From an uncultured Lachnospiraceae bacterium (lineage in GTDB: Bacteria; Bacillota; Clostridia; Lachnospirales; Lachnospiraceae), in contig CATBDC010000030.1 in the NCBI GenBank assembly GCA_949502235.1, forward strand, positions 1 to 45,371: DNA of 45,371 nt. Reading direction: 5' to 3'. The notes beneath the pieces were generated by a model. That model made no database searches, was not told the origin of the DNA, and saw only the letters and a list, made by a program, of their open reading frames with translations. Shown here piece after piece: positions 28,772 through 43,655 of this stretch. Within the stretch, counting starts at the first letter, position 1, and the number at the start of each line of letters is the position of its first letter. Made by a program: the position numbers and the translations under genes.

Positions 28772-29466
28772 ATACTTCGTTGGATCTCTTTTAAATTTTT
28801 CATGATATCCTGCCGGGCTGGTGCAAACGTAGAGCCAAGCTGCAAAAAAAGGGGATATAGCTGTTTGTAGATTTGTTCTGCCTGTATCCTGGGATGATAG
28901 ACTGTGTGAGATGAGAATTTCATACAGTCTGAAGCAGTTTTTACATCATCATATCCTCCATGCTTGCTTCCGGCGGCGACAGCGGCATAAATTGCAGCCC
29001 CAAGGGCTGCTGTCTGGCCGGAAGTGACTACGTAGAGCCTGTGCTGCAGGATTTCTGAAAAGATCTGCATAAGCAGAGGATTTTTTTCTGCAGCTCCTCC
29101 ACAGCAGTAGATTTTTTTTAATGCTGTTCCTGAAGCCTCCATGTGTTTCATGATGGACAGGGTTTCGAAGCCCATACTTTCTATTAATGCCCGGTATATA
29201 GCCTCGGGAGGCGTATTAAGTGTAAGACCGGTAATAAGACCGGAACGGCAGACATCTACATAAGGAGTTTTATTACCGTTAAACCAGTTGAGAGCCAAAA
29301 GGCCGGATTCCCCGGGGGATAGCCGGGCAGCTTTATCAGATATTTTATACCTTGGAATTCTATCTGCCGACTGGGACAATTTTATGTCTGCGTGGGTGAA
29401 ATTTACGAGTCCAATTGGTGAATAGCACAGACTGAATGATGGCAAAGCTATAGGATAAGGAGACAA
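28768..29466 (-). pseudogene. C-terminal remnant of a ribulokinase-like FGGY carbohydrate kinase
   Basis: The 232-codon frame matches only the second (ATP-binding) domain of AraB-type kinases: KAARLSPGESGLLALNWFNG, ITGLTLNTPPEAIYRALIES, YCCGGAAEKNPLLMQIFSEI and GQTAALGAAIYAAVAAG. Intact family members are about 530-560 residues with an N-terminal sugar-binding domain. Here the first 40 or so residues look unrelated, and the sequence beyond is occupied by the binding-protein gene on the other strand. The 5' half has been deleted or displaced. It is the only minus-strand frame inside the locus and is unlikely to make an active kinase. Confidence 0.82.
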
Positions 29467-29502: not shown

Positions 29503-30594
29503 ATGAAAGAAAGCATAAAAAGGTTGTCTGGAATACTTTTAATTGTGGTTATGGCTGTAGTGCTGATTGCGGGATGTGGAGGAACGCAGGATACAGAGGG
29601 AGATAAAACTGCGGAGAATAAAGAGGAAAGCGGAAGTGATGTTCTGAAAATCGGTGTTTGTATGCCGACTTTGCAGGAGGAGCGCTGGCAGAATGATTAC
29701 AACTATTTTGAAGCGATTAATGAAGAGCGTGATGATATAGAGCTGATGCTTCAAGTAGCAGATAATGATTCGGCAAAACAGCAGACACAGATTGAGAGTC
29801 TTATAAGTCAGGGTGTAGACGGAATTATCTGCTGTCCGGTAGATGCAAGTTCTATCGGAACGGCATTACAGGATGCACATGATGCAGGCATCTATGTTGC
29901 AGCATACTGCCGTCTGCCGGAAAACTGTGAGATTGACATGATTACAATGTTTGACAATGCAGAAGTAGGGAAACTAAATGCTGAATATGCTTACTCTCTG
30001 GCACCAAAAGGAAACTATGTTTTACTAAATGGTGATGTAGGCTCAACACCTGATGTTACGGATTATCCGAAAGGCTGGTACGGGGTGCTTCAGGATGCAA
30101 TTGATAAGGGAGATATTAAGATTGTTATGGAGCAGTACTGTGAAAGCTGGTCGGCAGAATCCGGCATGAAGAATATGGAAGAAGCACTGGCTGCAAATGA
30201 TAACGATATTGCTGCGGTTATCTGCGCAAATGATGGGGTGGCATCCGGTGCGATGCAGGCGCTGGATAGTGTAGGCAAAAATGATGGCTCTGTTGTAGTG
30301 ACCGGTAATGATGGAGACGTTACGGCATGTAAAAATATTATTGCAGGGCTTCAGGCATGCTCTACGGCACAGGATACGGAGAAACAGGCGGTTCTTGCGG
30401 TTGATACTATCGTGGACTTAATTAAAAACGATGGAGAGATTACAAACTTTGAAATTACGGATAAATACGATAATGGTGTGATGGAGGTTCCGTCTATTAC
30501 ATGTTCTGCTACACTGGTAACAAATGAAGAGGAGATTAACAAGCTTTTGATTGATACAGGACTGCGCGATAAAGCTGCAATTTATGGGAACTAA
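29503..30594 (+). CDS. sugar ABC transporter substrate-binding lipoprotein (xylose/ribose type)
   Basis: Extracellular receptor of a CUT2-type sugar importer. The 363-residue protein has a signal peptide and lipobox (LLIVVMAVVLIAGCG, Cys at about residue 25), an acidic linker, then a periplasmic-binding-protein fold with type I features: KIGVCMPTLQEERWQNDYNY, the repeated register SLISQGVDGIICCPVDASSI, AVICANDGVASGAMQAL and VVVTGNDGDVTA. This resembles XylF/ChvE receptors. AGGAGGAG precedes the ATG. It starts an apparent operon running through IolC; a strong hairpin follows it, which commonly allows receptor over-expression. Confidence 0.92.
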   Translation: MKESIKRLSGILLIVVMAVVLIAGCGGTQDTEGDKTAENKEESGSDVLKIGVCMPTLQEERWQNDYNYFEAINEERDDIELMLQVADNDSAKQQTQIESLISQGVDGIICCPVDASSIGTALQDAHDAGIYVAAYCRLPENCEIDMITMFDNAEVGKLNAEYAYSLAPKGNYVLLNGDVGSTPDVTDYPKGWYGVLQDAIDKGDIKIVMEQYCESWSAESGMKNMEEALAANDNDIAAVICANDGVASGAMQALDSVGKNDGSVVVTGNDGDVTACKNIIAGLQACSTAQDTEKQAVLAVDTIVDLIKNDGEITNFEITDKYDNGVMEVPSITCSATLVTNEEEINKLLIDTGLRDKAAIYGN

Positions 30595-30615
30595 CATTAT
30601 AGAGGAAGTGTTGGG

Positions 30616-30656
30616 TGCGTCTTCGGGAAAGGTTAGTTTTCCTGAAGGCGCATTTT
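30616..30656 (+). terminator. hairpin with T run after the binding-protein gene
   Basis: TGCGTCTTCGGGAAA (30616-30630) pairs with TTTCCTGAAGGCGCA (30638-30652) across 15 positions, two of them G-U in RNA, with a seven-base loop and TTTT after it. It probably acts as a leaky terminator or a 3' stabiliser that keeps receptor message above transporter message. Confidence 0.75.
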
Positions 30657-30686
30657 AATAAGTGGATGGAAAGAAAGGGGAAACCT

Positions 30687-32210
30687 GTGAATGATTTTAT
30701 TCTGCAAATGGAACATATCACAAAAGAGTTTTTCGGCGTAAAAGCACTTGATGACGTTACATTTAAGGTAAAAAGGGGCGATGTTCATGCCTTGATCGGT
30801 GAAAATGGAGCCGGAAAATCTACGATGATGAAGATACTAAGTGGAATTTGGCAGTATGGAACCTATGAAGGGCAGATTCTTCTTAATGGCCAAGAGCAGC
30901 AGTACAGAGACATCAAGGAAAGTGAACAGGCAGGCATTGCAATTATTTTTCAGGAGCTGACTCTGATTAAGTCGATGAATATCTGTGAAAATATTTTCTT
31001 AGGAGACGAGATAAAATACAGAGGCGTGATCAAGTGGAATGAACAGATTAAGAGGACAAAGGAGCTGCTTATGCGTGTGCATCTGAAGGTGGATCCGAAA
31101 ACAACGGTAGGAGAGCTGGGAGCAGGCCAGCAGCAGCTGATCGAGATTGCAAAGGCGCTAAATAAAGAACCGAAGCTGCTGATTCTGGATGAGCCGACTT
31201 CCTCCCTGTCAGACATGGATGTTGAAAATCTTATGCAGATTATCCGGGAATTGAAGGCTGAAGGAACCACCTGTGTCTATATATCCCATAAACTAAATGA
31301 AATTTTTAAGATTGCAGATACAGCAACAATTATCCGGGACGGAAGGTCAATTATTACAGAGGAGGTTCAAAATCTCACAGAAGCCAGGATTGTTTCATAC
31401 ATGGTAGGCCGCCAGCTTAATGAACGGTTTCCGAGAAAGGAGCATACTCCGGGGGAGGATGTTTTAGAGCTTCGAAACTGGACGGTTTTCGATCCGGAGT
31501 ATTCGGAACATGAGATGTGCAGCAAGGTCAATCTGACGGCCCGCAGGGGTGAGATTCTTGGTATTGCCGGTCTGATGGGAGCAGGAAGGACAGAACTGGC
31601 GCTTAGTATATTTGGATATTATCATGCAGCTGCAGAATCCAGGATGTATCTTGACGGAAAAAGAGTAAAGATTACAAGCCCTAAGAAGGCAATTGAGGCA
31701 GGAATTGGTTATGTGTCCGAAGACAGAAAACATTACGGCCTGATTCTGGAGTCTGATATAAAGACAAATATGTCCTTAGCCAGCCTGAAAAAGCTTTGCC
31801 GGCATGGTGCGATTGTGACAAATGAAGAGATCAGGAGAACAATGCATTATGTGGATTTGATGAAGGTGAAGGCTGTTTCGCTGAAACAGGAGGTGAAAGC
31901 GTTAAGCGGAGGAAATCAGCAGAAGGTCGTAATTGGGAAATGGCTGATGACCGCGCCCAAAGTACTGATTCTAGATGAGCCTACAAGGGGAATCGATGTG
32001 GGGGCAAAGCAGGAAATCTATAATGAAATGAATAATCTGGTTGACGAAGGAATGTGCATTATTATGATTTCGTCCGAGCTTCCCGAAATTCTCGGGATGA
32101 GCGACCGCATTTATGTCATGAGTGAGGGTCATTTGAGCGGAGAGATTGACTGGCATGAGGCAACACAGGAGAATATTATGGCATCCGCCATTGAAGGGGG
32201 ACAAAAATGA
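30687..32210 (+). CDS. sugar ABC transporter ATP-binding protein (double-ATPase, XylG/RbsA type)
   Basis: Energises the importer. A GTG start at 30687 is preferred: AAAGGGG lies six bases upstream and the product begins VNDFILQMEHITKEF at the first strand of the ATPase. In-frame starts further upstream fall inside the hairpin. The 507-residue protein has two nucleotide-binding domains. The first has Walker A GENGAGKST, signature GELGAGQQQLIE and Walker B LLILDEPTSSL. The second has a degenerate Walker A (GLMGAGRTE), signature ALSGGNQQKVV and VLILDEPTRGID. That asymmetry is normal for CUT2 ATPases. The stop overlaps the permease start as ATGA. Confidence 0.93.
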   Translation: MNDFILQMEHITKEFFGVKALDDVTFKVKRGDVHALIGENGAGKSTMMKILSGIWQYGTYEGQILLNGQEQQYRDIKESEQAGIAIIFQELTLIKSMNICENIFLGDEIKYRGVIKWNEQIKRTKELLMRVHLKVDPKTTVGELGAGQQQLIEIAKALNKEPKLLILDEPTSSLSDMDVENLMQIIRELKAEGTTCVYISHKLNEIFKIADTATIIRDGRSIITEEVQNLTEARIVSYMVGRQLNERFPRKEHTPGEDVLELRNWTVFDPEYSEHEMCSKVNLTARRGEILGIAGLMGAGRTELALSIFGYYHAAAESRMYLDGKRVKITSPKKAIEAGIGYVSEDRKHYGLILESDIKTNMSLASLKKLCRHGAIVTNEEIRRTMHYVDLMKVKAVSLKQEVKALSGGNQQKVVIGKWLMTAPKVLILDEPTRGIDVGAKQEIYNEMNNLVDEGMCIIMISSELPEILGMSDRIYVMSEGHLSGEIDWHEATQENIMASAIEGGQK

Positions 32211-33352
32211 GAGAGACTAGTAAAAAAGGAATTTCTTGGAAAAAGAACATCTTCCGTTTTTCGCTTGTTATCGAGATGGTGATTATTTTCATTGTTTTTC
32301 AGGCAGTTTCACGCGGATTGTTTTTAAGAAATGCCAATATAAATAATTTGTTTATGCAGTCATGTACTTATGCTGTTATTGGTTGCAGCATGGTGTATGT
32401 CATGATTATCGGAGGGATTGACCTGTCCGCGGGCGCCACGCTTGGTTTTTTGTGTACACTGGCAGCGACCCTGCAGCAGAAAAATGTTGATGTATCTCTG
32501 ACAATTGTTATTACTGTAGGCGTAGGAATTATGATAGGCGCGTTTTACGGCTACTGGGTTGCATATCAGGGAATGCCGGCCTTTATAGCTACGCTTGCCG
32601 GACAGAATATTTTCAGAGGCCTGACGCTTTTTGTGGGTAAGGGGATGTCAGTAGGACCTGCAAAAGAAGCTTTTGCAAAATATGGAAAAGGATGTCTTTC
32701 CCCGGTATTATCAACTGCTTATATCATAATATTTGTATCAATTGTATTTGCCGTTGTTTTCAGCCAGCGTAAATCAAAGAAAGCATATGGCTTTGAAACT
32801 TCGGGGATAGGAATAGATTTTCTTAAAGCAGGAAGCATTTCTTTAATTGTGGCTTTGGTAGGATTCCTGCTGACTTCATATAAAGGAATTCCAATTGCAG
32901 TGGTAATCCTGTCATTTTTAGCAGCAGTAATGACATTTATCGGACTTAACACTCCGTATGGGAGGGGAATCTATGCGATTGGAAACAACAGGGATGCCGC
33001 GCAGCTTTCCGGCATTAACACGAAAAAAGTAACATTCTGCGTATATTTGATTCACGGTGCTGTGGTAGCACTTGCATCGGTTATTTATCTTGGCAGGATA
33101 GGGCAGGCATCTGCAACGACAGGAACGGGATTTGAATTTAGTGCAATTACAGGATGTATTCTGGGCGGAACCTCTACACTGGGTGGAAGCGGGACGGTAA
33201 TCGGGGCAATCTTAGGTACAGTAATCATGGCAAGTCTTGACAATGGGATGGCTCTTATGAATATGGGAACTACCTGGCAGTATCTGATCAAGGGTGTTGT
33301 ACTGATTCTGGCAGTGTGGCTGGATATCGCAAGCAAAGCAAAGAAAAAATAG
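32207..33352 (+). CDS. sugar ABC transporter permease (XylH/RbsC type)
   Basis: Membrane channel of the CUT2 importer, 381 residues, about ten helices. Family marks include GGIDLSAGATLGFLC, the segment GMPAFIATLAGQNIFRG, the coupling-loop region NTPYGRGIYAIGNNRDAAQL and GCILGGTSTLGGSGTVIGAI. The length is closer to xylose-type XylH (about 390) than to RbsC (about 320). Translation is coupled to the ATPase by a four-base overlap, and the transketolase subunit gene follows after 13 bases, which ties uptake to catabolism. Confidence 0.93.
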   Translation: MRETSKKGISWKKNIFRFSLVIEMVIIFIVFQAVSRGLFLRNANINNLFMQSCTYAVIGCSMVYVMIIGGIDLSAGATLGFLCTLAATLQQKNVDVSLTIVITVGVGIMIGAFYGYWVAYQGMPAFIATLAGQNIFRGLTLFVGKGMSVGPAKEAFAKYGKGCLSPVLSTAYIIIFVSIVFAVVFSQRKSKKAYGFETSGIGIDFLKAGSISLIVALVGFLLTSYKGIPIAVVILSFLAAVMTFIGLNTPYGRGIYAIGNNRDAAQLSGINTKKVTFCVYLIHGAVVALASVIYLGRIGQASATTGTGFEFSAITGCILGGTSTLGGSGTVIGAILGTVIMASLDNGMALMNMGTTWQYLIKGVVLILAVWLDIASKAKKK

Positions 33353-33365
33353 GAGAATAGGAAGA

Positions 33366-34208
33366 ATGGAAGCAGAGAAAATACGAGAGCTGAAATTACA
33401 GGCAGCTAAAACAAGAAAAGTTACACTTGAAGCAATACGGACAGCTAACTCGGGGCATATCGGAGGTTCTTTTTCAATTGTTGAATTGCTGACAATACTA
33501 TATTTCGATAAGATGAATGTCAATGAGAGGAATCCGCATATGGAAAACAGGGATCGTTTTATTCTTTCAAAAGGACACTGTTGTCCGGCAGTGTATGCGA
33601 CATTGGCATATCGGGGTTTTTTCCCTCTTGAGGATATGAGGGGATTTAGAAAGCTTAAAGGATATTTGTCAGGGCATATGGAGATGAATCATATTCCGGG
33701 CGTGGATATGTCCACAGGATCTCTGGGGCAGGGACTTAGTGTCGGAGCCGGTATGGCTCTCGCTGCAAAGTGTGATCAGAAGGATTACCGGGTGTTTGTA
33801 GTAGTGGGAGATGGAGAGACTCAGGAAGGGCAGAACTGGGAAGCAGCGATGGCGGCAGGGAACTACGCTCTGGATAATCTAATCTGTATTGTAGATAATA
33901 ATAAACTGCAGCTGGATGGAAACTGCGAAGAAATTATGTCGCCTTATCCGCTGGATCAGAAATTTAAGGCATTCAACTGGAATGTAATTCTTTGTGACGG
34001 ACATAGTATGCAGAGCCTTTCGGATGCAATCGACCAGGCATCCGAAAGAAATGGGCATCCAACGGCAATCATTATGGATACAGTTAAGGGGAAAGGTGTT
34101 TCAGTATTTGAGAACCAGATACGTTTCCACGGGGGACGCCCGACAGAGGAGGAATATAAAATTGCATTTCAGGAATTAGACAGAGCAATAACGGATTTGG
34201 AGGGATAA
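33366..34208 (+). CDS. transketolase, N-terminal (thiamine diphosphate-binding) subunit
   Basis: First half of a split transketolase transferring two-carbon ketol units. The 280-residue protein carries the diphosphate/Mg2+ motif GDGETQEGQNWEAAM ending in IVDNNKLQLDG, and substrate-pocket histidines in SGHIGGSFS and SKGHCCPAVY. The pyrimidine domain is supplied by the next gene, two bases downstream. Split transketolases are common in anaerobes. In sugar-catabolic operons, as I recall them, they can be dedicated enzymes, as with apulose-4-phosphate (AptAB) or 6-deoxy-6-sulfofructose (SqwGH). The position inside a transporter operon suggests a pathway-specific role here, not the general pentose phosphate function. 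Confidence 0.93.
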   Translation: MEAEKIRELKLQAAKTRKVTLEAIRTANSGHIGGSFSIVELLTILYFDKMNVNERNPHMENRDRFILSKGHCCPAVYATLAYRGFFPLEDMRGFRKLKGYLSGHMEMNHIPGVDMSTGSLGQGLSVGAGMALAAKCDQKDYRVFVVVGDGETQEGQNWEAAMAAGNYALDNLICIVDNNKLQLDGNCEEIMSPYPLDQKFKAFNWNVILCDGHSMQSLSDAIDQASERNGHPTAIIMDTVKGKGVSVFENQIRFHGGRPTEEEYKIAFQELDRAITDLEG

Positions 34209-34210
34209 AT

Positions 34211-35170
34211 ATGCTGGAGAAAATTTCTACACGTGCAGCCTATGGTGAAGCATTGCTGGAATATGGTATTCCAAATGAGAGGGTATATGCGCTGGAGGCA
34301 GATGTGGCGGGATGTACAATGTCAGGAGTATTTGGAGAAGCGTGCCCGGAGCGGTTCTTTGAAATCGGAATTGCGGAGGCCAACATGATTGCAATGGGCG
34401 CAGGATTTGCAGCAAACGGAAAAATTCCGGTTTGTCATGCGTTTGGTTTGTTCACGGCAGGACGTGCGTATGACCAGATCCGGAATTCAGTGGCATACCC
34501 GAAGCTCAATGTAAAAATTGTGGGGACGAATGTAGGACTCACTGTTGGCGAAGACGGCCCTACACATCAATGTATCGAAGATCTGGCACTTATGCGGGTA
34601 GTGCCTAATATGGTAGTGCTGTCTCCATGTGACGGATATGAGACTAAGCAGGCCGTAAAGGCGATGCTGGAATATGAGGGGCCGGTTTTTATGCGCACGG
34701 GACGGCCGGCTGTGGAAACAGTAACAAACCGGATTCAGGATTATCATTTTCAAATTGGAAAGGGAATCACACTGGCGGAGGGTAATGACGTAACAATTAT
34801 TGCTACAGGGCTGATGGTTCAGGAGGCGCTGAAGGCATCTGACTTGCTAAAGGAAAAGGAAATTTACGCGAGGGTGATAAACATACATACAATTAAACCA
34901 ATTGACAGGGAGATTATCATACGGGCAGCACGGGAAACAAAAGCAATCGTAACAGCAGAAGAGCATAATATTATCGGCGGACTTGGCTCGGCAGTTGCAG
35001 AAGTGATTTGTGAGGAATGTCTGGTTCCGCTGGAATATGTCGGTGTCCAGGACAAATTCGGTCATTCCGGGGAGGCATGGGAAGTCATGCAGGCATATGG
35101 ACTGACAGCAGAGCATATTGCAGAAAAGGCAATAAGAGCAGTTTCCCGGAAGGAAAAAGCATTGCGGTGA
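34211..35170 (+). CDS. transketolase, C-terminal (pyrimidine-binding) subunit
   Basis: Second half of the split transketolase, 319 residues. It contains the catalytic glutamate region FEIGIAEANMIAMGAGFA, the conserved GLTVGEDGPTHQCIEDLALM, VVLSPCDGYETKQAV, and the C-terminal domain with TAEEHNIIGGLGSAVAE. The two subunits together would equal a full transketolase of about 600 residues. It follows the first subunit by two bases and precedes the glycyl radical activase by seven. Substrate specificity cannot be read from the sequence. Confidence 0.93.
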   Translation: MLEKISTRAAYGEALLEYGIPNERVYALEADVAGCTMSGVFGEACPERFFEIGIAEANMIAMGAGFAANGKIPVCHAFGLFTAGRAYDQIRNSVAYPKLNVKIVGTNVGLTVGEDGPTHQCIEDLALMRVVPNMVVLSPCDGYETKQAVKAMLEYEGPVFMRTGRPAVETVTNRIQDYHFQIGKGITLAEGNDVTIIATGLMVQEALKASDLLKEKEIYARVINIHTIKPIDREIIIRAARETKAIVTAEEHNIIGGLGSAVAEVICEECLVPLEYVGVQDKFGHSGEAWEVMQAYGLTAEHIAEKAIRAVSRKEKALR

Positions 35171-35177
35171 AATAAAG

Positions 35178-36101
35178 ATGGAGAGAAAAGCAATGATTAC
35201 GGATATCCAGAAATTCTCTATACACGATGGACCGGGTATCCGGACCGTCGTGTTTTTTAAAGGATGTCCTCTTGGCTGTCTGTGGTGCCAGAATCCAGAG
35301 ACAAGAAAAACCTCTTTTCAGCTTATGCTGAATCCACAGCTGTGTATAGGGTGCGGAAGCTGTAAGAAGGTGTGCCCCAGTGGAGCAGCTTATGGAGAAT
35401 GGATGAACTGTAAAAGCTGCGGACTTTGTGTAGATGAATGTTATGCGAAAGCACGCAGGATTGCAGGGAGTATTTTTACTGCCGATCAGGTTTTTGAAAA
35501 GGTAAGAGAGGATGAAGTGTTCTATAAAAACAGCAAAGGCGGAGTAACAGCAAGCGGCGGGGAACCCATGCTGCAGGCAAAATTCTGCCGTGAGCTTTTT
35601 GAAAAATGTAAAACAGCCGGTATTTCTACAGCAATAGAGACCAGCGGTTACTGTACATATGACAACTTTGAACTGCTGCTGCCATGGTGTGATCTGTTTC
35701 TTTACGATATCAAGCACACAGATACAAAGCTTCATAAAAAATATACAGGGCATGGGAATGGACGGATTTTATATAACCTAAAGAAAATAACGAAGGCAGG
35801 GGCGAATGTCATTATCCGGATGCCATTTATACCAGGTGTAAATGATATGGCATGGAATCTGAGAAAAATGGCACAGACTGCGGCAGAGTGCAGGATCAGA
35901 GAGATTCATCTGCTTCCGTTTCATCAGTTCGGAGAGTCAAAATGGAAAGAATTGAGCTTAGAGTATAAATGTCACGATTATCTGCCGCCCACAGAAGAGG
36001 CTTTGCATGAAGGAGCGGCAATATTGAAGGAATATGGTCTTCGGGTAAATATCGGAGGTTATGGAGAAGGGCAAAGGAGGAGTACGGATGGGAAGGATTG
36101 A
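35178..36101 (+). CDS. glycyl radical enzyme activating protein (radical SAM)
   Basis: Uses S-adenosylmethionine and a [4Fe-4S] cluster to install the glycyl radical on the adjacent enzyme. The 307-residue protein has the activase start (FSIHDGPGIRTVVFFKGCPL), the radical SAM cysteines C30, C34 and C37, and an inserted ferredoxin-like domain with eight cysteines (CIGCGSCKKVCP and CKSCGLCVDEC). The latter marks activases of dehydratase/decarboxylase-type glycyl radical enzymes rather than the short PflA. An alternative start at the sixth codon cannot be excluded. Its end overlaps the glycyl radical enzyme gene by 14 bases, which makes the partnership almost certain. Confidence 0.95.
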   Translation: MERKAMITDIQKFSIHDGPGIRTVVFFKGCPLGCLWCQNPETRKTSFQLMLNPQLCIGCGSCKKVCPSGAAYGEWMNCKSCGLCVDECYAKARRIAGSIFTADQVFEKVREDEVFYKNSKGGVTASGGEPMLQAKFCRELFEKCKTAGISTAIETSGYCTYDNFELLLPWCDLFLYDIKHTDTKLHKKYTGHGNGRILYNLKKITKAGANVIIRMPFIPGVNDMAWNLRKMAQTAAECRIREIHLLPFHQFGESKWKELSLEYKCHDYLPPTEEALHEGAAILKEYGLRVNIGGYGEGQRRSTDGKD

Positions 36102-38385
36102 AAGAATAAAAGACCGGCTGTGGAACAAGGAATTTGTAACTAAAAAAGAATGGTGGGGAATGGACGAAACGATTTTGGTCAATGAAGAAATAAAAAAGGA
36201 GCCCCTGGTTGTGCGCAAGGCTCTGGGGATAGAACATGTGATGCGTCATATGCCGGTGGAGATAAAACCAGATGAATTAATTGTCGGAATCTGTACAATG
36301 GCATCGACAGGACTTGGATATGAATTCCCGGATTATGCTCTGCCAGAGGAGAAGGAGGAGGCATTAAAATCTTGTTATACTTATAAATCAGTCTGGGGGC
36401 ATCATCCCGGGGATTATGCTAAGGTATTGAAGCTGGGGCTTAGAGGAATCAGAAAGGAAATCTATGGAAAGCTCTGGGAGGAAACAAAAAAGGAGGCAGC
36501 TGACTGTGAAAAGATTAATCTGTACCGGGCTATGATTATAAGTCTGAATTCAGTGCAGGAGCTGGCGTTTCGCTATGCACAGCTTGCCGTGGATTATGCG
36601 GCAAAAGAAAAGAACCCTTCCAGAAAAGCAGAGCTTATCAAAATTGCGGAAATCTGTAATAAGGTTCCGGAGAACCCGGCGGAAACCCTGCATGAAGCGC
36701 TGCAGAGTATTTATTTTTTTATGGCGGCGCTGCAGGGTACGCTGGAATTGGTGCCCTTACAGCGTGTTGATCAATATTTTTATCCCTATTACAGACATGA
36801 TATTGATGAAGGAATTGTAGAAGAACAGGACGTAAGAGAACTGATAGCAAGCTGGCTTGCAAAGTTCAGTGAACGTGTTCAGATTCTTCCTGAATTCTTT
36901 GAAGAAGGCCATGAGATCCCGATGGATCAGTCGGACGGAGGTTCTCCGGAGGATTTTGCCGGTTCCTTTTATCTGGAAAATGATCAGGATTATAACAAAG
37001 GAACCAGCGCCAATCAATCTCTTATGAATTTGATTGTAGGAGGACAGACCAGGGACGGAAAAGATGCTGCGAATGAGCTGACTTACCTGTTCATAGAGAT
37101 GTGGAACTATCTTGAGCTGGTACAGCCTGTTGCCTCTGTGAGATTTCATAAAGGAAGTCCCCGCAAATTGTACGATCTGGTGGCCGATATTTTGAGAAAA
37201 GGGGCCGGGGAGCCGGCAATTTATAATGATGAATACATTATTAAAGGCCTTACGGATATGGGAATTCCGATTGAAGACGCAAGAGATTATTCCAATGACG
37301 GGTGCTGGGAGGTTTTGATACCTGGAAAAACGAACTTTGGATTTGAGTATGTGAATCTTCTTCAGATACTGGAATATGCTATGCATCGCGGGAGAAGCCT
37401 TGTGAGAGGCAGGAAGGAGGCAAGGGATGTTGGAGATGCTGCTGAATGTGCTTCCTTTGATGAATTCTATCAGAAATATTATCTGCCTCTCATTAAGGAG
37501 AGAATGGGATTCATATTAAGAAGCAAATTGAAATATCGGTTTGACCGTTATAAAATCGCGCCCTCACCTCTTCTTTCTACCGTGATGGACGACTGTATTG
37601 AAACAGGACTAGATCTATCAAACGGAGGGGCAAAATACAATATTTATCCTTTTATGCTGACAGGATATTCCAATGCGGTTGATTCCCTGATTGTTATCAA
37701 AAAGCTGGTGTTTGAAGAAAAGAAAGTAACAATGGAGCGATTGATTGAAGCAACAGAAAAGAATTTTGAGGATGATGAAGTATTACGGCAGATGGTTATA
37801 AACCGCGTGCCTAAATTTGGCAACGATAATTCCTACGTAGATGATTTTTCCGCTGGTCTTTTAAAGGATATGGAAAGACTTCTGGATGAGACATTATCTG
37901 AAATTGATTCAGAGGATCTGTATATTCCTCTTGGGATTGCCACATTTGAAACTTATATGTCGATTGGACACAATATAGGGGCTTCCTGTGACGGACGGCT
38001 TAAAAGCGCGCCAGTATCAAGTAATTATTCACCGTCAGTGGGCGTTGATTTAAATGGCCCAACGGCAGTAATAAAGTCCATCACAAAGCCAGATCTGACT
38101 CGTTATAATACAGGCTGTCCATTAGATATCCAGATTAACGCAAATGAGGCGAAAGGAGAGGCCGGTCTTGAAAGGGTGTCTGCATTGATTAAGTCATTTC
38201 TGGAGCTGGGAGGACTGATTCTGACAATTACGGGAGTGAGGGAAGAGGAGCTTCTTGACGCGCAGCTTCACCCAATGGAGCATAAGAACCTGCGCGTCCG
38301 TATGGGAGGGCTGTCGGCGTACTTCATTGCTCTGGCAAAGGAGCATCAGGATTCGTTAATAAACAGGGTAAAGCATGGTATTTAA
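36088..38385 (+). CDS. glycyl radical enzyme of the PFL-like family, function unknown
   Basis: Oxygen-sensitive radical enzyme; the family includes pyruvate formate-lyase, diol and hydroxyproline dehydratases, and C-N, C-S and C-C lyases. The ATG at 36088 has AAGGAGG 14 bases before it; an in-frame ATG at 36061 lies upstream of that site. The 765-residue protein has the thiyl cysteine C406 in NDGCWEVLIPG, and the Cys-x-Glu pattern matches dehydratase/lyase members rather than PFL (Cys-Cys). The C-terminal glycyl loop reads LRVRMGGLSAYF with radical Gly741; the usual Tyr after the Gly is Leu. Activase before and aldehyde dehydrogenase after suggest an aldehyde product. The exact reaction is not predictable. 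Confidence 0.92.
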   Translation: MGRIERIKDRLWNKEFVTKKEWWGMDETILVNEEIKKEPLVVRKALGIEHVMRHMPVEIKPDELIVGICTMASTGLGYEFPDYALPEEKEEALKSCYTYKSVWGHHPGDYAKVLKLGLRGIRKEIYGKLWEETKKEAADCEKINLYRAMIISLNSVQELAFRYAQLAVDYAAKEKNPSRKAELIKIAEICNKVPENPAETLHEALQSIYFFMAALQGTLELVPLQRVDQYFYPYYRHDIDEGIVEEQDVRELIASWLAKFSERVQILPEFFEEGHEIPMDQSDGGSPEDFAGSFYLENDQDYNKGTSANQSLMNLIVGGQTRDGKDAANELTYLFIEMWNYLELVQPVASVRFHKGSPRKLYDLVADILRKGAGEPAIYNDEYIIKGLTDMGIPIEDARDYSNDGCWEVLIPGKTNFGFEYVNLLQILEYAMHRGRSLVRGRKEARDVGDAAECASFDEFYQKYYLPLIKERMGFILRSKLKYRFDRYKIAPSPLLSTVMDDCIETGLDLSNGGAKYNIYPFMLTGYSNAVDSLIVIKKLVFEEKKVTMERLIEATEKNFEDDEVLRQMVINRVPKFGNDNSYVDDFSAGLLKDMERLLDETLSEIDSEDLYIPLGIATFETYMSIGHNIGASCDGRLKSAPVSSNYSPSVGVDLNGPTAVIKSITKPDLTRYNTGCPLDIQINANEAKGEAGLERVSALIKSFLELGGLILTITGVREEELLDAQLHPMEHKNLRVRMGGLSAYFIALAKEHQDSLINRVKHGI

Positions 38386-38401
38386 GGAGGGAAAGTGAAA
38401 G

Positions 38402-39844
38402 ATGTATATGATTATTGGAGGAGAACATATAAGCGGAGAGGGACGAAAGACGATAGAGGTAATCAATCCGGCAACACAGGAGATCATCGATACAGTACCA
38501 GCCGCAGGGCAGGAGGACATTGACAGGGCAGTGGCAAATGCAGGAAAAGGATTAAAGGAATGGTCCCAAACCCCTCTTTACGAAAGAATTAACTGTGTTT
38601 ATCGTTTTGCTGATTTATTGGAGAAAGAAGAAAATTTTAAAAAGCTTGTGGAGTATGAGATTACGGAGAATGGAAAACCTGTTTCCATGGGAGAAGAGGA
38701 TATTCACTGCAGCGCTTATATATGCAGGGCATTTGCGGAAAAAGCGAGAAATTTTACCGGAGATATGATTCCGGCAGATGCAGAGCCGGGGACAAAAGAC
38801 GACCTGATTCTGACCGTTAGAGAGCCGATAGGAATTGTTGTTAACATTGTTCCCTTTAATTATCCGACAAATTTGTACTGCTTTAAGACGATTCCTGCAC
38901 TCCTTATGGGGAATTCCGTAATTGTAAAACCGGCTTCAGATACACCTCTTGCGAATGTTTTCATTACAGATCTCCTTTTGGAAGCAGGTGTTCCTGCAAA
39001 TGCCCTGCAGATTCTGACCGGGCGGGGGGATATGGGTGATTTGCTGGTGAGCCATCCGGGCATTGATTTTGTAAGTGTAACAGGCAGCTGCGAGACGGGA
39101 AAAAGTATTATGGAGCGCTGTGCCGGAAATCTTCATCAATGTCACATGGAGCTTGGTGGAAATGACCCGATGATCATCTTTGAGGACTGTGATTTAGATA
39201 AAGCGGTGAAAGAAACTGTGTCAGGAAGAATTGGTAATGCAGGGCAGACCTGCTGCGCAAGTAAACGGTATATTGTACAGAACAGCATCAGACAGCAGTT
39301 TGTCACAAAACTTAAAGATGCACTAGGAAAAGTAAAGATTGGTGACCTGCATGACTACGAGACAGAGATGGGACCAGTTATCAGCGAAAAGGCGGCCATT
39401 GAAGTAGAAAGACAGATAAACCATACGATTGCCCAGGGAGCAAAGCTGGTATATGGAGGGCATCGCTTTAACCATGCATTTATTGAGCCGACAATTCTTG
39501 ATGATGTCACAGGTGAGATGGATGTGGCGCATGAGATGGAAATATTTGGCCCGGTCTTTCCGATCATTGGTTTTGACACAATAGAAGAGGCTGTCTCCAT
39601 TGCTAATGATATCCCCTATGGACTGCAGAGCGCGGTTATGACGGAAGATATCAAGAAAGCGCTGTACATCGCCAGGAAAATGGAGGCGGGAAGCTGTATT
39701 ATTAATGGAAGCTCTAATTACCGCCATAACCATCAGGCTTTTGGCGGACACAAGAAGTCCGGGTTTGGGCATGAAGGAGTTGCATATACGCTTGCAGAAA
39801 TGTCAAATACGAAGACGATAGCATTGAAAAAAATATTTGCATAA
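38402..39844 (+). CDS. NAD(P)-dependent aldehyde dehydrogenase (non-acylating type)
   Basis: Oxidises an aldehyde to the acid. The 480-residue protein has PFNYPTNLYCFKTIPALLMG, the general-base glutamate in MELGGNDPMIIFED, the catalytic Cys284 in GNAGQTCCASKR and the closing GGHKKSGFGHEG. Presence of the ELGG glutamate separates it from the acylating IolA-like enzyme encoded earlier in the locus. It resembles succinate-semialdehyde, lactaldehyde and sulfoacetaldehyde dehydrogenases at the family level. It starts 16 bases after the glycyl radical enzyme, so it may oxidise the aldehyde formed there or by the transketolase. Confidence 0.9.
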   Translation: MYMIIGGEHISGEGRKTIEVINPATQEIIDTVPAAGQEDIDRAVANAGKGLKEWSQTPLYERINCVYRFADLLEKEENFKKLVEYEITENGKPVSMGEEDIHCSAYICRAFAEKARNFTGDMIPADAEPGTKDDLILTVREPIGIVVNIVPFNYPTNLYCFKTIPALLMGNSVIVKPASDTPLANVFITDLLLEAGVPANALQILTGRGDMGDLLVSHPGIDFVSVTGSCETGKSIMERCAGNLHQCHMELGGNDPMIIFEDCDLDKAVKETVSGRIGNAGQTCCASKRYIVQNSIRQQFVTKLKDALGKVKIGDLHDYETEMGPVISEKAAIEVERQINHTIAQGAKLVYGGHRFNHAFIEPTILDDVTGEMDVAHEMEIFGPVFPIIGFDTIEEAVSIANDIPYGLQSAVMTEDIKKALYIARKMEAGSCIINGSSNYRHNHQAFGGHKKSGFGHEGVAYTLAEMSNTKTIALKKIFA

Positions 39845-39869
39845 CAACAGATTGAAAGAAGAGACTGCA

Positions 39870-40637
39870 ATGTATTTAGAAAAGAAAGTAAAGAATGGAT
39901 ATAATTCCTATATCAACGCAGAAGAAAATGATTTCGGAACTATGATGGATGTGGGTCTTTTGATTATGGATAAGGGTGAAGTGCATAGAGAAAAGAATAT
40001 GGATAAGGAGATGGCAATCGTTTTACTGGAGGGCAGGGCAGATGTTACATATGGAAAAAAGCGGTTCTCTATATCCAGAAGAGATATGTTTCATGAAGAA
40101 GCATGGTGTATGCTTTTTCCAAGTGGATACGAGGTTTCAGTATCCGCCGGCAGCCACTGTGAATGTTACATTCAAAAAACAGTAAATAAAAGAATGTATG
40201 ACCCGTTAATACTTTCACCATATGATATACAAGTACAAGAAGCAGGCAGAAACCAGGAGCTGGACGGATGTGTGAGACGGGATATTAAAACATTTTTTGA
40301 TTATGATAATGCGCCATATTCGAATATGGTATTAGGGGAAGTCCTGAACTATCCGGGGAAATGGTCTTCATATCCGCCCCACCGCCACCCGCAGCCAGAG
40401 GTGTATTTTTACCGGTTTGACCGGCCGCAGGTATTAGGGGCGGCTTTTGGGAATGGAAGCATCGAGGTGTCGCACCATAACGGGCTGCTGGCTATTGACA
40501 GGGGATTTCATTCACAGGTATCTGCGCCTGGGTATACAATGTGCTATTTATGGGGAATACGTCATCTGGAGGGGGAACCATGGATAAAAACAAGAATTGA
40601 TGAGGAGGAACATAAGTGGCTGAACTCTTATTTTTAA
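39870..40637 (+). CDS. IolB-like cupin isomerase (5-deoxyglucuronate isomerase family)
   Basis: IolB converts 5-deoxy-D-glucuronate to 2-deoxy-5-keto-D-gluconate in inositol breakdown. The ATG at 39870 is preferred (AAAGAAGAG upstream); the in-frame TTG at 39837 lies within the previous gene. The 255-residue bicupin has the metal-binding segment SSYPPHRHPQPEVYFYRF and a late GFHSQV histidine, with an N-terminal cupin containing LLEGRADVTYG. Upstream inositol enzymes are absent here, so the natural substrate may be a different uronate or deoxy-sugar. The gene overlaps the next by 22 bases. Confidence 0.87.
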   Translation: MYLEKKVKNGYNSYINAEENDFGTMMDVGLLIMDKGEVHREKNMDKEMAIVLLEGRADVTYGKKRFSISRRDMFHEEAWCMLFPSGYEVSVSAGSHCECYIQKTVNKRMYDPLILSPYDIQVQEAGRNQELDGCVRRDIKTFFDYDNAPYSNMVLGEVLNYPGKWSSYPPHRHPQPEVYFYRFDRPQVLGAAFGNGSIEVSHHNGLLAIDRGFHSQVSAPGYTMCYLWGIRHLEGEPWIKTRIDEEEHKWLNSYF

Positions 40638-41551
40638 AGCCGGTTTTTAAGCAGACGGTCTGGGGCGGAAATAGAATGAGAAAAGACTTTGCTTATTACC
40701 TTCCCGGAGAAAACACAGGTGAATGCTGGGGGGTCAGCGCACATCCGGACGGAGACTGCAGGATCCAGTCAGGAACATTCAGAGGGAAAAAGCTTTCTGA
40801 ACTTTGGAGAGAAGAAAGACAGCTATTTGGAAATCTAGATATGGAAGAATTTCCGATTCTCGTAAAAATTATTGATGCACAGGACAAACTGAGTATACAG
40901 GTGCACCCAGGAAATGACTATGCCCGGAAAAATGAGAATGGGGCAAAAGGGAAAGAGGAATGCTGGTATATACTTGACTGCCCCCAGGAGGCAGCTTTGG
41001 TGATTGGACATCAGGCAAGGTCTAAAGAACAGTTAAAGCGTTTGATTGAAGCTGGAGAATGGGAAAAATTGATTCGAAGGGTGCCCATAAAAAAGGGAGA
41101 TTTTATCCAGATTAACGCGGGAACGATGCATGCTATAACGGCTCACGTGATGCTTCTGGAAACACAGCAAAACAGTAATCTTACATACAGGATATATGAT
41201 TATGGCAGAAAAAGCAGAGGAAAAGCCAGAAAGCTCCATATTGAAAAAGGTCTTGAAGTTATGAATGTACCGGAAAGTCCAATTGAAGGGAGCATTGTCC
41301 ATACACAGGAGTTTCCGGAAAACAGGCTGAACCAGCTGATTTTAACAGAACACTACCAGGTGTGGGAGGTAAAGGTTTCCGGGGAGTTTACTTTTGCCAG
41401 AAATGTTCCGTTTTTGGTTATGACGGTAGTCAGCGGAAGGGGATTCCTGAATGGAGTTTTTATTCGCAAAGGGCGGCATTTTATACTTCCCTGGGGATTT
41501 GGAAGGGTAAAAATGTGCGGGGCGATGCAGATTATTGTATCTACAGTTTAG
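40616..41551 (+). CDS. class I mannose-6-phosphate isomerase-like protein
   Basis: Zinc-dependent cupin isomerase interconverting an aldose-6-phosphate and a ketose-6-phosphate. The start is GTG at 40616 with GAGGAGGA just upstream, inside the end of the iolB-like gene. The 311-residue protein is the short Firmicutes type: FKQTVWGGNRMRKDF, zinc-site segments KLSIQVHPGNDYA and KEECWYILDC, and INAGTMHAITAHVMLLETQQ. Placement between IolB- and IolC-like genes suggests it acts on a pathway sugar or sugar phosphate rather than serving general mannose metabolism. Confidence 0.88.
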   Translation: MAELLFLKPVFKQTVWGGNRMRKDFAYYLPGENTGECWGVSAHPDGDCRIQSGTFRGKKLSELWREERQLFGNLDMEEFPILVKIIDAQDKLSIQVHPGNDYARKNENGAKGKEECWYILDCPQEAALVIGHQARSKEQLKRLIEAGEWEKLIRRVPIKKGDFIQINAGTMHAITAHVMLLETQQNSNLTYRIYDYGRKSRGKARKLHIEKGLEVMNVPESPIEGSIVHTQEFPENRLNQLILTEHYQVWEVKVSGEFTFARNVPFLVMTVVSGRGFLNGVFIRKGRHFILPWGFGRVKMCGAMQIIVSTV

Positions 41552-41566
41552 ACGGCAGGAGGAGAT

Positions 41567-42595
41567 ATGAAATATATTGATTTTGATGTGTCAAGGAAAT
41601 TTGATTTGATTTTATTAGGGCGTGTGACGATTGATTTTAATCCGGCGTACAATAAACAGATAAAAGAAGAATTTAAACCTCTAAAGGAAGTACATGTGTT
41701 TGAAAAGTTTGTTGGAGGCTCACCGGCAAATATTGCAGTAGGAATAAGCCGCCACGGAATGAAAGCAGGGTTTTTAGGAAAGGTTTCAGATGATCAGTTC
41801 GGAGATTTTGTGTTAGAGTATTTTAAGGAACAGGGTATAGATACCTCGCAGATTAGAAGATGTAAGAAAGGTGAAAAACTGGGACTTACTTTTACGGAAA
41901 TGCTGTCAGAAAAAGAAAGCAGGATTTTAATGTACCGGAATTGTGCTGCAGACCTTAAGCTTCAGACAGAAGAAATTGACGAAGAATATGTCAAAAATGC
42001 AAAAGCACTTTTGATTTCTGGCACGGCACTTTCAGAAAGCCCGTCTCGTGAAGCGGCGATAAAGGCGGCTATGCTTGCAAGAAAAAACGGAACCAGAATT
42101 ATTTTTGATATTGATTACCGAAACTATAATTGGAAAAATGAAGACGAGATAGCAATATATACTTCGATTATCGCAAAAGAGGCGGATATTATTATGGGAT
42201 CCAGGGAGGAATTTGACCTGATGGAAAAACTTATAGCCCCTGGGGTGTCAGACAGGGAAAGTGCAGCATTATGGCAGGGATATCAGGCAAAAATTGTTGT
42301 AATCAAGCATGGAATGGAAGGCTCGTCAGCATATACAAATGATGGACAGGAGTATACTGTTAAGCCCTTTCCTGTAACTGCCAGAAAAGGGTTTGGCGGT
42401 GGAGACGGGTATGGGGCAGGATTCTTATATGGGCTCTTTCAGGGCTGGGATATAAGAAGGTGCCTTGAGTTTGGCTCGGCGGAGGCATCGATGATGGTAA
42501 GAAGCAACAACTGTTCAGATGCATTGCCTGGTACAAAAGAAGTAGAAGCTTTTATAAGCGAAGAAAAAGGGTTATTTGGCGAAACAGTGATGTAA
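41567..42595 (+). CDS. IolC-like sugar kinase (5-dehydro-2-deoxygluconokinase family, PfkB fold)
   Basis: IolC phosphorylates 2-deoxy-5-keto-D-gluconate before aldol cleavage. The 342-residue protein has the IolC-type opening FDLILLGRVTIDFNPAYN, the PfkB motif VGGSPANIAVGISRHGMKAG and the C-terminal motif GFGGGDGYGAGFLYG containing the catalytic aspartate (commonly GAGDS or GAGDA). AGGAGGAG precedes the ATG. It is the last gene of the locus. The partner aldolase IolJ is not in the window, so the phosphorylated product may instead feed the split transketolase; that link is inference. Confidence 0.88.
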   Translation: MKYIDFDVSRKFDLILLGRVTIDFNPAYNKQIKEEFKPLKEVHVFEKFVGGSPANIAVGISRHGMKAGFLGKVSDDQFGDFVLEYFKEQGIDTSQIRRCKKGEKLGLTFTEMLSEKESRILMYRNCAADLKLQTEEIDEEYVKNAKALLISGTALSESPSREAAIKAAMLARKNGTRIIFDIDYRNYNWKNEDEIAIYTSIIAKEADIIMGSREEFDLMEKLIAPGVSDRESAALWQGYQAKIVVIKHGMEGSSAYTNDGQEYTVKPFPVTARKGFGGGDGYGAGFLYGLFQGWDIRRCLEFGSAEASMMVRSNNCSDALPGTKEVEAFISEEKGLFGETVM

Positions 42596-42684: not shown

Positions 42685-42835
42685 ATGATAAATAAGACCT
42701 TTAATGTTACTGGCGTCTGTATCCCCGAAAGGCATTATATGGCGGATACGAGTGAAAAACTTCAATAAAAAGAAAAAGGTGGGAGTAAGGGAAATCCATT
42801 TGGAAGATAAAATATTGATTGAGGCAGTTGTGTAA
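42685..42835 (+). pseudogene. internally deleted fossil of an AAA-ATPase/PD-(D/E)XK nuclease-like gene
   Basis: An ATG at 42685 with AGGAGG upstream opens a 27-codon frame, TFNVTGVCIPERHYMADTSE, which is the typical N-terminus of the large AAA-ATPase-like family with a C-terminal nuclease-like domain found in gut anaerobes. It stops at 42766. Overlapping it in the next frame, 42752-42835 reads VKNFNKKKKVGVREIHLEDK then ILIEAVV and stop, which is the typical C-terminus of the same family. More than a kilobase between them is gone and the join is out of frame near 42750. Both ends were recognised by recall of the family, not by a search. Confidence 0.7.
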
Positions 42836-42872
42836 AATATTCGTATCAAAACTGATTGATGGAGGTAAAGCT

Positions 42873-43655
42873 ATGCGTTTCAGGCCATGCATTGATATAC
42901 ATAACGGACAGGTAAAGCAGATTGTTGGCGGAAGCCTCACAGACAGAGGTGACCGCGCCAAGGAAAATTTTGCCGCTTCCTATACGGCGGATTATTATGC
43001 GGATTTATATAGAAGGGACGGCCTTACGGGAGGGCATGTTATTCTTCTTAATCCATCTTCATCACAATATTATGAAGAGACGAGAAGTCAGGCGATGCGT
43101 GCACTTGCTGCCTTTCCCGGGGGGCTCCAGATAGGAGGCGGAATTACGGCAGAAAATGCATCTGAATATCTGGAGGCCGGTGCAAGTCATGTTATTGTGA
43201 CATCTTATGTATTCCGGGAAGGGAAAATCTGCTGGGAGCGTATGGAAAAACTGAAACAGACAGTTGGAAAGGAATATGTTGTAATTGATTTAAGCTGCCG
43301 GAAACGGGAAGGTTCCTATTATATAGTGACAGATCGCTGGCAGAAATTTACGGAAGTAAAGCTTTCGAAAGATATTTTGGATGAAATATCCCAGTATTGT
43401 GATGAATTTCTTATACACGGTGTAGACGTGGAAGGAAAAGCAGCGGGCATTGATGAGACGCTTGCAGTCATTCTGGGAGACTATACGGCATCTTCTTTGG
43501 CGCTTCCTCTGACTTATGCGGGCGGCATTGGAAGCCTTGAAGACTTAGAAAAGTTTAAGAATGTTACAAGAGGACGAGTTGATTTTACAATAGGAAGCGC
43601 CTTAGACCTTTTTGGAGGTCCGCTTCCGTATGATATAATTAAAAAAATAAAATAA
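42873..43655 (+). CDS. hisA: HisA, phosphoribosylformimino-AICAR-P isomerase, eukaryotic-like form
   Basis: Amadori isomerase of histidine biosynthesis (ProFAR to PRFAR). The ATG at 42873 has GGAGGT six bases upstream, giving 260 residues. The protein opens MRFRPCIDIHNGQVKQIVGG and contains LQIGGGITAENASEYLEAGA, VVIDLSCRKREG, FLIHGVDVEGKAAGID and TYAGGIGSLEDLEKF. This spelling and length match the yeast/plant HIS6-like branch known also in some clostridia, more than the standard 240-residue bacterial HisA. No other his genes adjoin it, so it is an orphan copy. Confidence 0.9.
   Translation: MRFRPCIDIHNGQVKQIVGGSLTDRGDRAKENFAASYTADYYADLYRRDGLTGGHVILLNPSSSQYYEETRSQAMRALAAFPGGLQIGGGITAENASEYLEAGASHVIVTSYVFREGKICWERMEKLKQTVGKEYVVIDLSCRKREGSYYIVTDRWQKFTEVKLSKDILDEISQYCDEFLIHGVDVEGKAAGIDETLAVILGDYTASSLALPLTYAGGIGSLEDLEKFKNVTRGRVDFTIGSALDLFGGPLPYDIIKKIK

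Follow-up and report, generated by a model that had tools for sequence, protein, structure and literature searches.

How can the lower enzymes of inositol catabolism be supplied in a genome where neither IolE nor IolD is recognised? This question is raised by a contig of 45,371 nucleotides from an uncultured Lachnospiraceae bacterium (CATBDC010000030.1, assembly GCA_949502235.1), analysed over its whole length and called here the window. Eleven co-directional genes, running from a CUT2-type sugar importer to the kinase IolC, occupy positions 29503-42595 of its forward strand and combine inositol-type enzymes with a glycyl radical enzyme (GRE), a hydrolytic aldehyde dehydrogenase (ALDH2) and a transketolase (TK) split into two subunits. 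The tight packing pointed out in an earlier, sequence-only reading of this DNA holds: all families are found as named and in place, with spacings, from the binding-protein gene of the importer to iolC, of 20, -4, 13, 2, 7, -41, 16, -8, -22 and 15 bases. Since these spacings extend only from -41 to +20 bases, with overlaps, the eleven genes would, by their layout, form one transcription unit.

The answer that we prefer, with a probability of about 0.35, is that the GRE converts a hexose into a 5-deoxy-6-aldehyde, that ALDH2 and an IolB-like isomerase turn it into 5-keto-2-deoxygluconate (DKG), and that IolC, an aldolase and IolA finish the breakdown, DKG being cleaved by the TK as well. The evidence for the downstream half of this route is good, whereas the GRE step upstream of it is a proposal. 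GREs account for a large share of the unusual reactions of anaerobes, and many of them have no assigned substrate; at the present locus, the downstream intermediates indicated by IolC, IolA and the IolB family leave few candidates for the product of one GRE subtype.

From IolC and IolA back to probable intermediates

The kinase IolC (41567-42595, +), a predicted 5-dehydro-2-deoxygluconokinase, scores 377 bits with TIGR04382 (cut-off 300) and conserves the FGGGD motif with the PfkB-type Asp. It is 78, 76, 74, 67 and 59% identical to the IolC of five fetched clusters (L082, L080, L081, L079 and L083, respectively; L and G numbers are our handles for loci and genomes). All five hold IolB together with an IolD 53-55% identical to the scanned IolD of locus L075; IolE and IolG are both present in the stretches L079, L080 and L082, IolG only in L083 and neither in L081. 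This identity of 59-78% to the kinases of IolD- and IolB-bearing clusters makes DKG a probable intermediate of the pathway, well supported if indirectly so. In established inositol chemistry, aldolase cleavage of DKG-phosphate yields malonate semialdehyde, the substrate of IolA. The window encodes an IolA-type CoA-acylating (methyl)malonate-semialdehyde dehydrogenase (MMSDH) upstream of the operon (27254-28771, +), which scores 559 bits with TIGR01722 (cut-off 448.5), has 1t90 as nearest solved chain, and displays the MMSDH pattern, with a Cys in GMRCMA and AKNH replacing the ELGG motif. Its action on malonate semialdehyde is likewise well supported by homology.

ALDH2 (38402-39844, +), of NAD(P) type, shows the catalytic Glu and Cys expected of a hydrolytic enzyme, with HMELGG and GQTCCA motifs, and reaches 432 bits with NF040648, below the cut-off of 650. 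Motifs and nearest structures agree with the previous description of two aldehyde dehydrogenases, one acylating and one hydrolytic. The IolB-like protein (39837-40637, +) is a divergent cupin isomerase of the IolB/KduI family by Pfam (PF04962, 160 bits), which retains the HxHPQPE metal motif with its later His and scores 90.7 bits with TIGR04378, under the cut-off of 205; comparison with solved structures returned nothing useful. It is followed by a ManA-like isomerase of the type I phosphomannose isomerase family (40616-41551, +; TIGR00218, 186 bits, cut-off 116.2), one of two ManA-family genes over cut-off in the genome. Curated cut-offs are thus passed by IolA, IolC, the ManA-like protein and the GRE activase, and IolB fails its own.

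Genome-wide profile searches (101 contigs, 3.78 Mb, completeness 95.66%) gave at best 53 bits for IolE against a cut-off of 290, and 262 bits for IolD against 715, this last match lying next to what by eye resembles the small-subunit gene of an acetolactate synthase. No inositol dehydrogenase-type gene lies in the operon, and the genome itself was not searched for IolG. The genome encodes five class II aldolases, so the IolJ step may be available. The list of missing Iol steps drawn up earlier consequently stands genome-wide for IolE and IolD, for the cluster only in the case of IolG, and less firmly for IolJ. Ordinary inositol catabolism, with iolG, iolE and iolD lying in the unassembled part of the genome, is very improbable: the assembly may lack about 4% of the genome and IolG is not covered by the searches, but neither IolE nor IolD is found over cut-off, the operon sits inside the contig and not at its edge, the GRE arrangement is repeated in Diplocloster agilis (see below), and inositol catabolism needs no GRE. 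That the locus is something other than ordinary inositol breakdown, as first suggested, is therefore borne out. The accompanying idea that a cyclic substrate is processed by the GRE and the TK in place of IolE and IolD is not backed by the evidence, the operon having no inositol dehydrogenase-type enzyme; an open-chain or pyranose sugar would fit better by redox bookkeeping.

The open-access literature, preprints and most subscription papers being outside this scope, contains among the matches listed no account of such a gene set, in line with the earlier impression, and none of a GRE acting on the C5 oxygen of a free hexose or of such a pathway. Searches joining GRE with malonate semialdehyde, or inositol with transketolase and malate semialdehyde, found nothing either. 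The arrangement is real, partly conserved, built from known enzyme families and apparently undescribed as a set.

The glycyl radical enzyme and its proposed substrate

The GRE (36061-38385, +) contains PFL-like (PF02901, 460 bits) and Gly_radical (PF01228) domains and overlaps the gene of a radical-SAM activase (35178-36101, +; TIGR02494, 330.5 bits, cut-off 174.35). The thiyl Cys415 and the base Glu417 lie in NDGCWE, and the glycyl loop RMGGLSAY at 747-754; C415 and E417 are invariant, and RMGGLSAY invariant or nearly so, in the 12 GREs aligned. With both domains, the CxE motif, the loop and the adjacent activase, the protein has the features of an eliminase-type GRE. Its predicted model, weak (pLDDT < 50) at 81-88, 106-112 and 273-320 among others, is closest to structures of eliminases, with diol dehydratase, HypD and CutC the nearest. 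We propose that it may be a hexose C5-deoxygenating dehydratase or ring-opening lyase.

According to this proposal, the operon would serve the anaerobic catabolism of a hexose imported by the CUT2 system, an aldose in the window and a ketose or a differently isomerised sugar in D. agilis. The sugar would enter in free form. By means of its glycyl and Cys415 radicals, the GRE would abstract a hydrogen from the C6 carbinol and expel the C5 oxygen, either as a hydroxyl (open or furanose form) or as the pyranose ring oxygen, to give a 5-deoxy-6-aldehyde, which ALDH2 would oxidise to a 5-deoxyhexuronate and the IolB-like protein isomerise to DKG. IolC would then phosphorylate DKG, a class II aldolase encoded elsewhere would release dihydroxyacetone phosphate and malonate semialdehyde, and IolA would convert the latter to acetyl-CoA and CO2. 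In a second branch, the split TK would move two carbons of DKG, a D-threo ketose, to an aldose phosphate, leaving malate semialdehyde. The order GRE, ALDH2, IolC would follow from the structure of DKG, which needs a hexose minus its C5 oxygen plus a C6 carboxylate; among the operon enzymes, presumably only the GRE could create the deoxy carbon and only ALDH2 the free acid. Derived stereochemistry would leave as candidate sugars the D-fructo and L-sorbo ketoses and the D-gluco, D-manno, L-ido and L-gulo aldoses. The substrate and product of the GRE, the placing of ALDH2 before IolB, any role of the ManA-like protein and the nature of the TK donor are all putative in this scheme. A polyol substrate was set aside for the window, whose operon has no alcohol dehydrogenase, and retained as a possibility for related loci, since several encode such an enzyme; a sulfonate substrate was rejected, no sulfonate genes being recognised.

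Could the GRE and ALDH2 instead act on an unrelated small diol (1,2-propanediol, glycerol or a sulfonate), in a patchwork operon where IolB, IolC and IolA are relics or handle imported deoxy acids? Diol and glycerol dehydratases are among the structures nearest to the predicted fold, which would agree with this, as does the finding of IolB and IolC in only one of 15 GRE loci. Position 229 of the GRE aligns with His281 of glycerol dehydratase, which we take to be its active-site His, and is Glu in the window and in 10 of 11 aligned relatives, the His being found in L031 alone. The window protein is therefore set aside as a classical glycerol or 1,2-propanediol dehydratase and probably does not belong to that class. 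Together with the overlap of the genes in one unit and the recurrence of IolA and of kinase plus aldolase in D. agilis, this makes the patchwork distinctly unlikely. The class of YbiW and PflD, lyases of the 6-phosphates of 1,5-anhydroglucitol and 1,5-anhydromannitol, was also rejected: structural alignment gives only 27-28% identity to these chains, the importer is of the ABC type and no phosphotransferase system (PTS) is present among the operon genes.

The importer genes bear on the size of the sugar. The binding lipoprotein (29503-30594, +) is XylF/ChvE-like, with 227 bits to the xylF model (cut-off 389.55) and 4ywh and 3m9w as nearest solved chains; the ATPase (30615-32210, +) scores 691 bits with NF010069, slightly below its cut-off of 699, and the permease (32207-33352, +) 307 bits with the GguB model, below 450. 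A XylF-like protein might indicate a pentose, from which GRE and ALDH2 would make a 4-deoxypenturonate; after isomerisation to 2-deoxy-4-ketopentonate, the TK would release malonate semialdehyde for IolA and a C2 unit, the kinase branch being for hexoses or secondary. Such a route accounts for the retention of both TK and IolA in D. agilis. We consider it quite improbable, however, since IolC is a close homologue of a kinase acting on a C6 compound, two relatives in the clade of the IolB-like protein (L075 and L076) lie in inositol clusters with IolD, and the sugar-contacting Asp of XylF is replaced by Cys in the window and by Arg in D. agilis.

Conserved neighbourhoods and the possible role of transketolase

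Close relatives of the GRE are rare. Counting each time the genome of the window itself, matches occur in one of 6 genomes of the same genus, 6 of 299 of the family (E 1e-100), 4 of 395 relatives (1e-150) and one of 391 of the class (1e-180); beyond the window, one of the 299 family genomes, D. agilis ASD5720, holds a close relative (63% identity). Plasmids gave 11 records, the best rows at 31-35%. A single-protein query of the genome contig collection found no GRE match, and an alignment query gave 15 loci. We dropped L031 (30% identity, His at 229), which leaves 14 relatives, 39-63% identical to the window GRE with D. agilis included, and thus 15 loci with the window. The truncated or broken GREs of L028, L029, L030 and L033 were left out of the alignment and tree, no pieces being joined. 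One of them, at L028:1-12577, is a 50% relative split over two frames and accompanied by AOR-family, thiolase and hydroxybutyryl-CoA dehydrogenase genes; its contig is labelled Methanosuratincola, perhaps by a binning error.

TK subunits are encoded near the GRE in nine of these 14 related loci. If a genome has three TK genes, such an association would arise by chance with a probability of about 3e-13, and if it has five, of about 3e-11; these values are optimistic because near-duplicates were kept: L026/L027 and L029/L033 are close pairs, and the 14 loci are not independent events. An aldehyde-oxidising gene accompanies the GRE in 12 of the 15 loci, an aldehyde dehydrogenase (ALDH) in eight (the window, L021, L026, L027, L029, L032, L033 and L035) and an AOR-family gene in L022, L024, L025 and L028; where scanned, these genes fall below the one curated cut-off. 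None was seen at L034 or in the 4.3 kb of L030, and a short ALDH-like piece at the end of L023, not recovered on re-examination, was not counted. As such genes are common in genomes, this association is weaker evidence than that of the TK. L034 carries a deoC gene (272 bits, cut-off 117), which would suit an aldehyde flanked by a CH2 group.

The most informative relative is the D. agilis cluster (L012, L017, L021), which encodes on one strand a pfkB kinase, a class II aldolase, the binding protein, ATPase and permease of the importer, activase, GRE, ALDH2, both TK subunits and IolA. It shares with the window the CUT2 importer, GRE (63%), activase (49%), ALDH2 (48%), split TK and IolA (61%). 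It differs by its other pfkB kinase and class II aldolase, by a TK of another branch and by the absence from the stretch of IolB, ManA and a kinase of IolC grade. Kinase and aldolase are the chemistry expected after DKG and support our proposal; their presence without IolB suggests that the D. agilis substrate may be a ketose. The co-occurrence on which the sequence-only reading depended is thus found elsewhere, in D. agilis and in the TK-GRE pairs; the IolB-, ManA- and IolC-like genes are joined to a GRE in the window alone. D. agilis encodes, several kb upstream of this cluster (L017:8770-12874), a second GRE (28% to that of the window) with its activase, beside another CUT2-type importer. 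Two further loci, L015 and L016 (genomes G194 and G132), carry a GRE clade at 35-36% identity and, by eye, a Rossmann-type dehydrogenase/epimerase, a ROK kinase, a beta-glucosidase and a CUT1-like importer; they look like another uncharacterised GRE sugar cluster.

The window TK consists of an N-terminal, thiamine pyrophosphate-binding subunit (33366-34208, +; PF00456, 190.8 bits), whose nearest solved chain, 6yak, is the N-terminal component of a split-chain transketolase, and a C-terminal subunit (34211-35170, +; PF02779 and PF02780). Its two adjacent genes are one of three TK_N copies of the genome, as expected of a pathway-linked enzyme; another split TK, at L085, adjoins a gene read by eye as a transaldolase. 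In a midpoint-rooted tree of 14 pairs, one split (100/100) unites the window TK with the two others of its own genome, to which it is closest among those compared (53%), apart from those of D. agilis, of other GRE loci and of L074/L075. Since the window and D. agilis TKs lie on different branches, TK was recruited to GRE clusters at least twice. Moreover, the same role filled by different genes in the two clusters argues that TK and kinase are needed and not hitchhiking. Ring opening by the TK in place of IolD was set aside as first choice, because the tree places this TK among the split TKs of its own genome and the operon encodes no enzyme of the inositol dehydrogenase type; the TK appears better explained as cleaving DKG, or a pentose analogue.

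The IolB family offers a second view of the TK. It is matched in 47 of 299 family genomes (that of the window counted), and in a tree of 30 sequences (window plus 29 loci) the window protein falls into a clade of six with five divergent ones (100/100), its sister (97/89) being L045, whose neighbourhood is L074. Clusters of inositol type with a TK occur at L075:2157-12275 (genome G238, of the family of the window) and L074:5685-10892 (genome G165), both with a split TK and genes for a type II GAPDH (GAPDH-II) and a PGK-like protein near the divergent IolB. L075 reads IolG (443 bits, cut-off 355), GAPDH-II, PGK-like, both TK subunits, LarAH6 malate racemase (563, cut-off 500), IolE-like, IolB-like and IolD (892, cut-off 715). 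At L076, at a contig start, the divergent IolB is accompanied by the last part of a GAPDH-II gene and by genes for a PGK-like protein, IolE and IolD; the neighbourhoods at L077 and L078 are uninformative. No IolC over cut-off is present in the genomes of L074, L075 and L076 (at best 150-163 of 300 bits), whereas G250, a genome with a standard cluster, has one (375 bits). Since the L075 cluster, with IolG, TK, malate racemase, IolE-like protein and IolD, lies in a genome without IolC over cut-off, DKG is suggested as TK donor. Gene content at L075 further suggests that malate semialdehyde would be oxidised with phosphate to malate with gain of ATP. Fischer projections would give the D form, which would provide the malate racemase with a purpose. 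Genomes of the L074/L075 type possibly have, therefore, a TK branch of inositol catabolism with substrate-level phosphorylation and malate as end product.

Several observations weigh against the hexose proposal. IolB-, ManA- and true IolC-like genes are found in one of the 15 GRE loci, the window, and an IolA-type gene in two, the window and D. agilis, whose pfkB kinase is only 23% identical to IolC and scores 106 bits with the IolC model, under cut-off. The ManA-like gene is without a firm role, and TK and kinase branches together are redundant. The best match of ALDH2 is a lactaldehyde dehydrogenase model, and its relatives occur in 13 of 299 family genomes, at 14 places; several of seven fetched stretches look by eye like sugar-acid genes. 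ALDH2 may then have a small aldehyde, for instance malate semialdehyde, as its substrate. At both L074 and L075, the GAPDH-II protein scores over the ordinary GAPDH cut-off and may simply be a glycolytic enzyme. L074 carries IolM and IolN over cut-off and, in its stretch, no IolD, IolE or IolG, so that a non-deoxy keto acid may be the substrate of its TK. This neighbourhood of the sister protein, together with the failed IolB cut-off, means that the IolB-like protein may use a substrate other than one of the 5-deoxyglucuronate type.

Two GRE loci with TK also count here. L022 (18285-19730) and L023 (17976-19421) encode an HpaB-family protein with Cys98, Cys102 and YHRQSYGGC ending at Cys298, motifs that we take to be those of 4-hydroxybutyryl-CoA dehydratase; L023 has in addition an iron-type alcohol dehydrogenase and a CoA-transferase relative (293 of 674.8 bits). 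In these clusters, a GRE would seem to feed the formation of C4 acids or butyrate and may make succinate semialdehyde; obtaining the latter from 3,4-dihydroxybutyrate would be simpler for these two loci. Extended to the window, this gives the main rival to a GRE acting on a hexose: the TK would split DKG, supplied either by import of a 5-deoxyuronate or by genes elsewhere, a reductase would turn malate semialdehyde into 3,4-dihydroxybutyrate, and GRE and ALDH2 would lead through succinate semialdehyde to succinate. 3,4-Dihydroxybutyrate is the carboxylate analogue of 2,3-dihydroxypropanesulfonate (DHPS), which the GRE HpfG dehydrates (PMC11489063). We hold this late role of the GRE to be unlikely for the window, whose operon has neither a malate semialdehyde reductase nor another source of 5-deoxyglucuronate; moreover, possible pocket sites distinguish the GREs of the window and D. 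agilis from the wider clade (Glu against Ala at 429, Tyr against His at 430).

Our preferred reading, a GRE acting early on the hexose, leads to a broader and more tentative proposal, which we would doubt sooner than rely on: removal of the C5 oxygen of a free hexose, maybe by opening of the pyranose ring, would found a radical route to 5-deoxyuronates and into the lower inositol pathway, with DKG shared by the kinase/aldolase and TK branches. If this were true, free sugars would join the substrates of GREs, anaerobes would gain a sugar route bypassing upper glycolysis, and transketolase would be a recurrent partner of one GRE clade. The locus also points to the possible TK branch of inositol breakdown ending in malate in related genomes.

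Around the operon, an IclR-family protein (26285-27079, -; TIGR02431, 159.6 bits, cut-off 284.75), divergent from IolA, is by its position a candidate regulator of the locus. IolA is separated from the importer by 731 bases, which hold on the opposite strand (28771-29466, -) a fragment of an FGGY ribulokinase, probably a gene remnant: it matches model positions 368-553 of 554, the C-terminal third, and lacks the N-terminal part. Directly downstream of the operon lies a HisA of the eukaryote-type family (42819-43655, +; TIGR02129, 322 bits, cut-off 229).

Comparison with known systems

The Bacillus-type myo-inositol pathway (IolG, E, D, B, C, J and A) shares with the window IolC, an IolB-family isomerase and IolA, with DKG and malonate semialdehyde as expected intermediates. 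It differs in its IolE and IolD, for which the window genome has nothing over cut-off; a GRE, a hydrolytic aldehyde dehydrogenase and a split TK are found instead, and IolB is divergent. Pathway-linked split transketolases acting on an unusual ketose occur in the sulfoglycolytic transketolase pathway (SqwGH) and in apiose catabolism (AptAB). The window TK resembles these in being pathway-linked and split; no sulfo- or apiose-pathway genes are recognised in its operon, however, and among those compared it is nearest to the split TKs of its own genome.

The HpfG/HpfX pathway of DHPS (PMC11489063) joins a GRE dehydratase to an aldehyde-oxidising enzyme, as in the window operon; its substrate is a C3 sulfonate and its dehydrogenase is CoA-acylating, and no link to IolB or IolC is seen there. 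The precedent for C-O (ring) cleavage of sugar derivatives by a GRE is the radical glycolysis of YbiW and PflD on 1,5-anhydroglucitol-6-phosphate and 1,5-anhydromannitol-6-phosphate, as described in PMC12441222. There too a GRE deoxygenates a sugar-like substrate by C-O cleavage, but their substrates are first phosphorylated by the PTS, whereas the window combines its GRE with an ABC importer, an aldehyde dehydrogenase and the lower enzymes of inositol catabolism.

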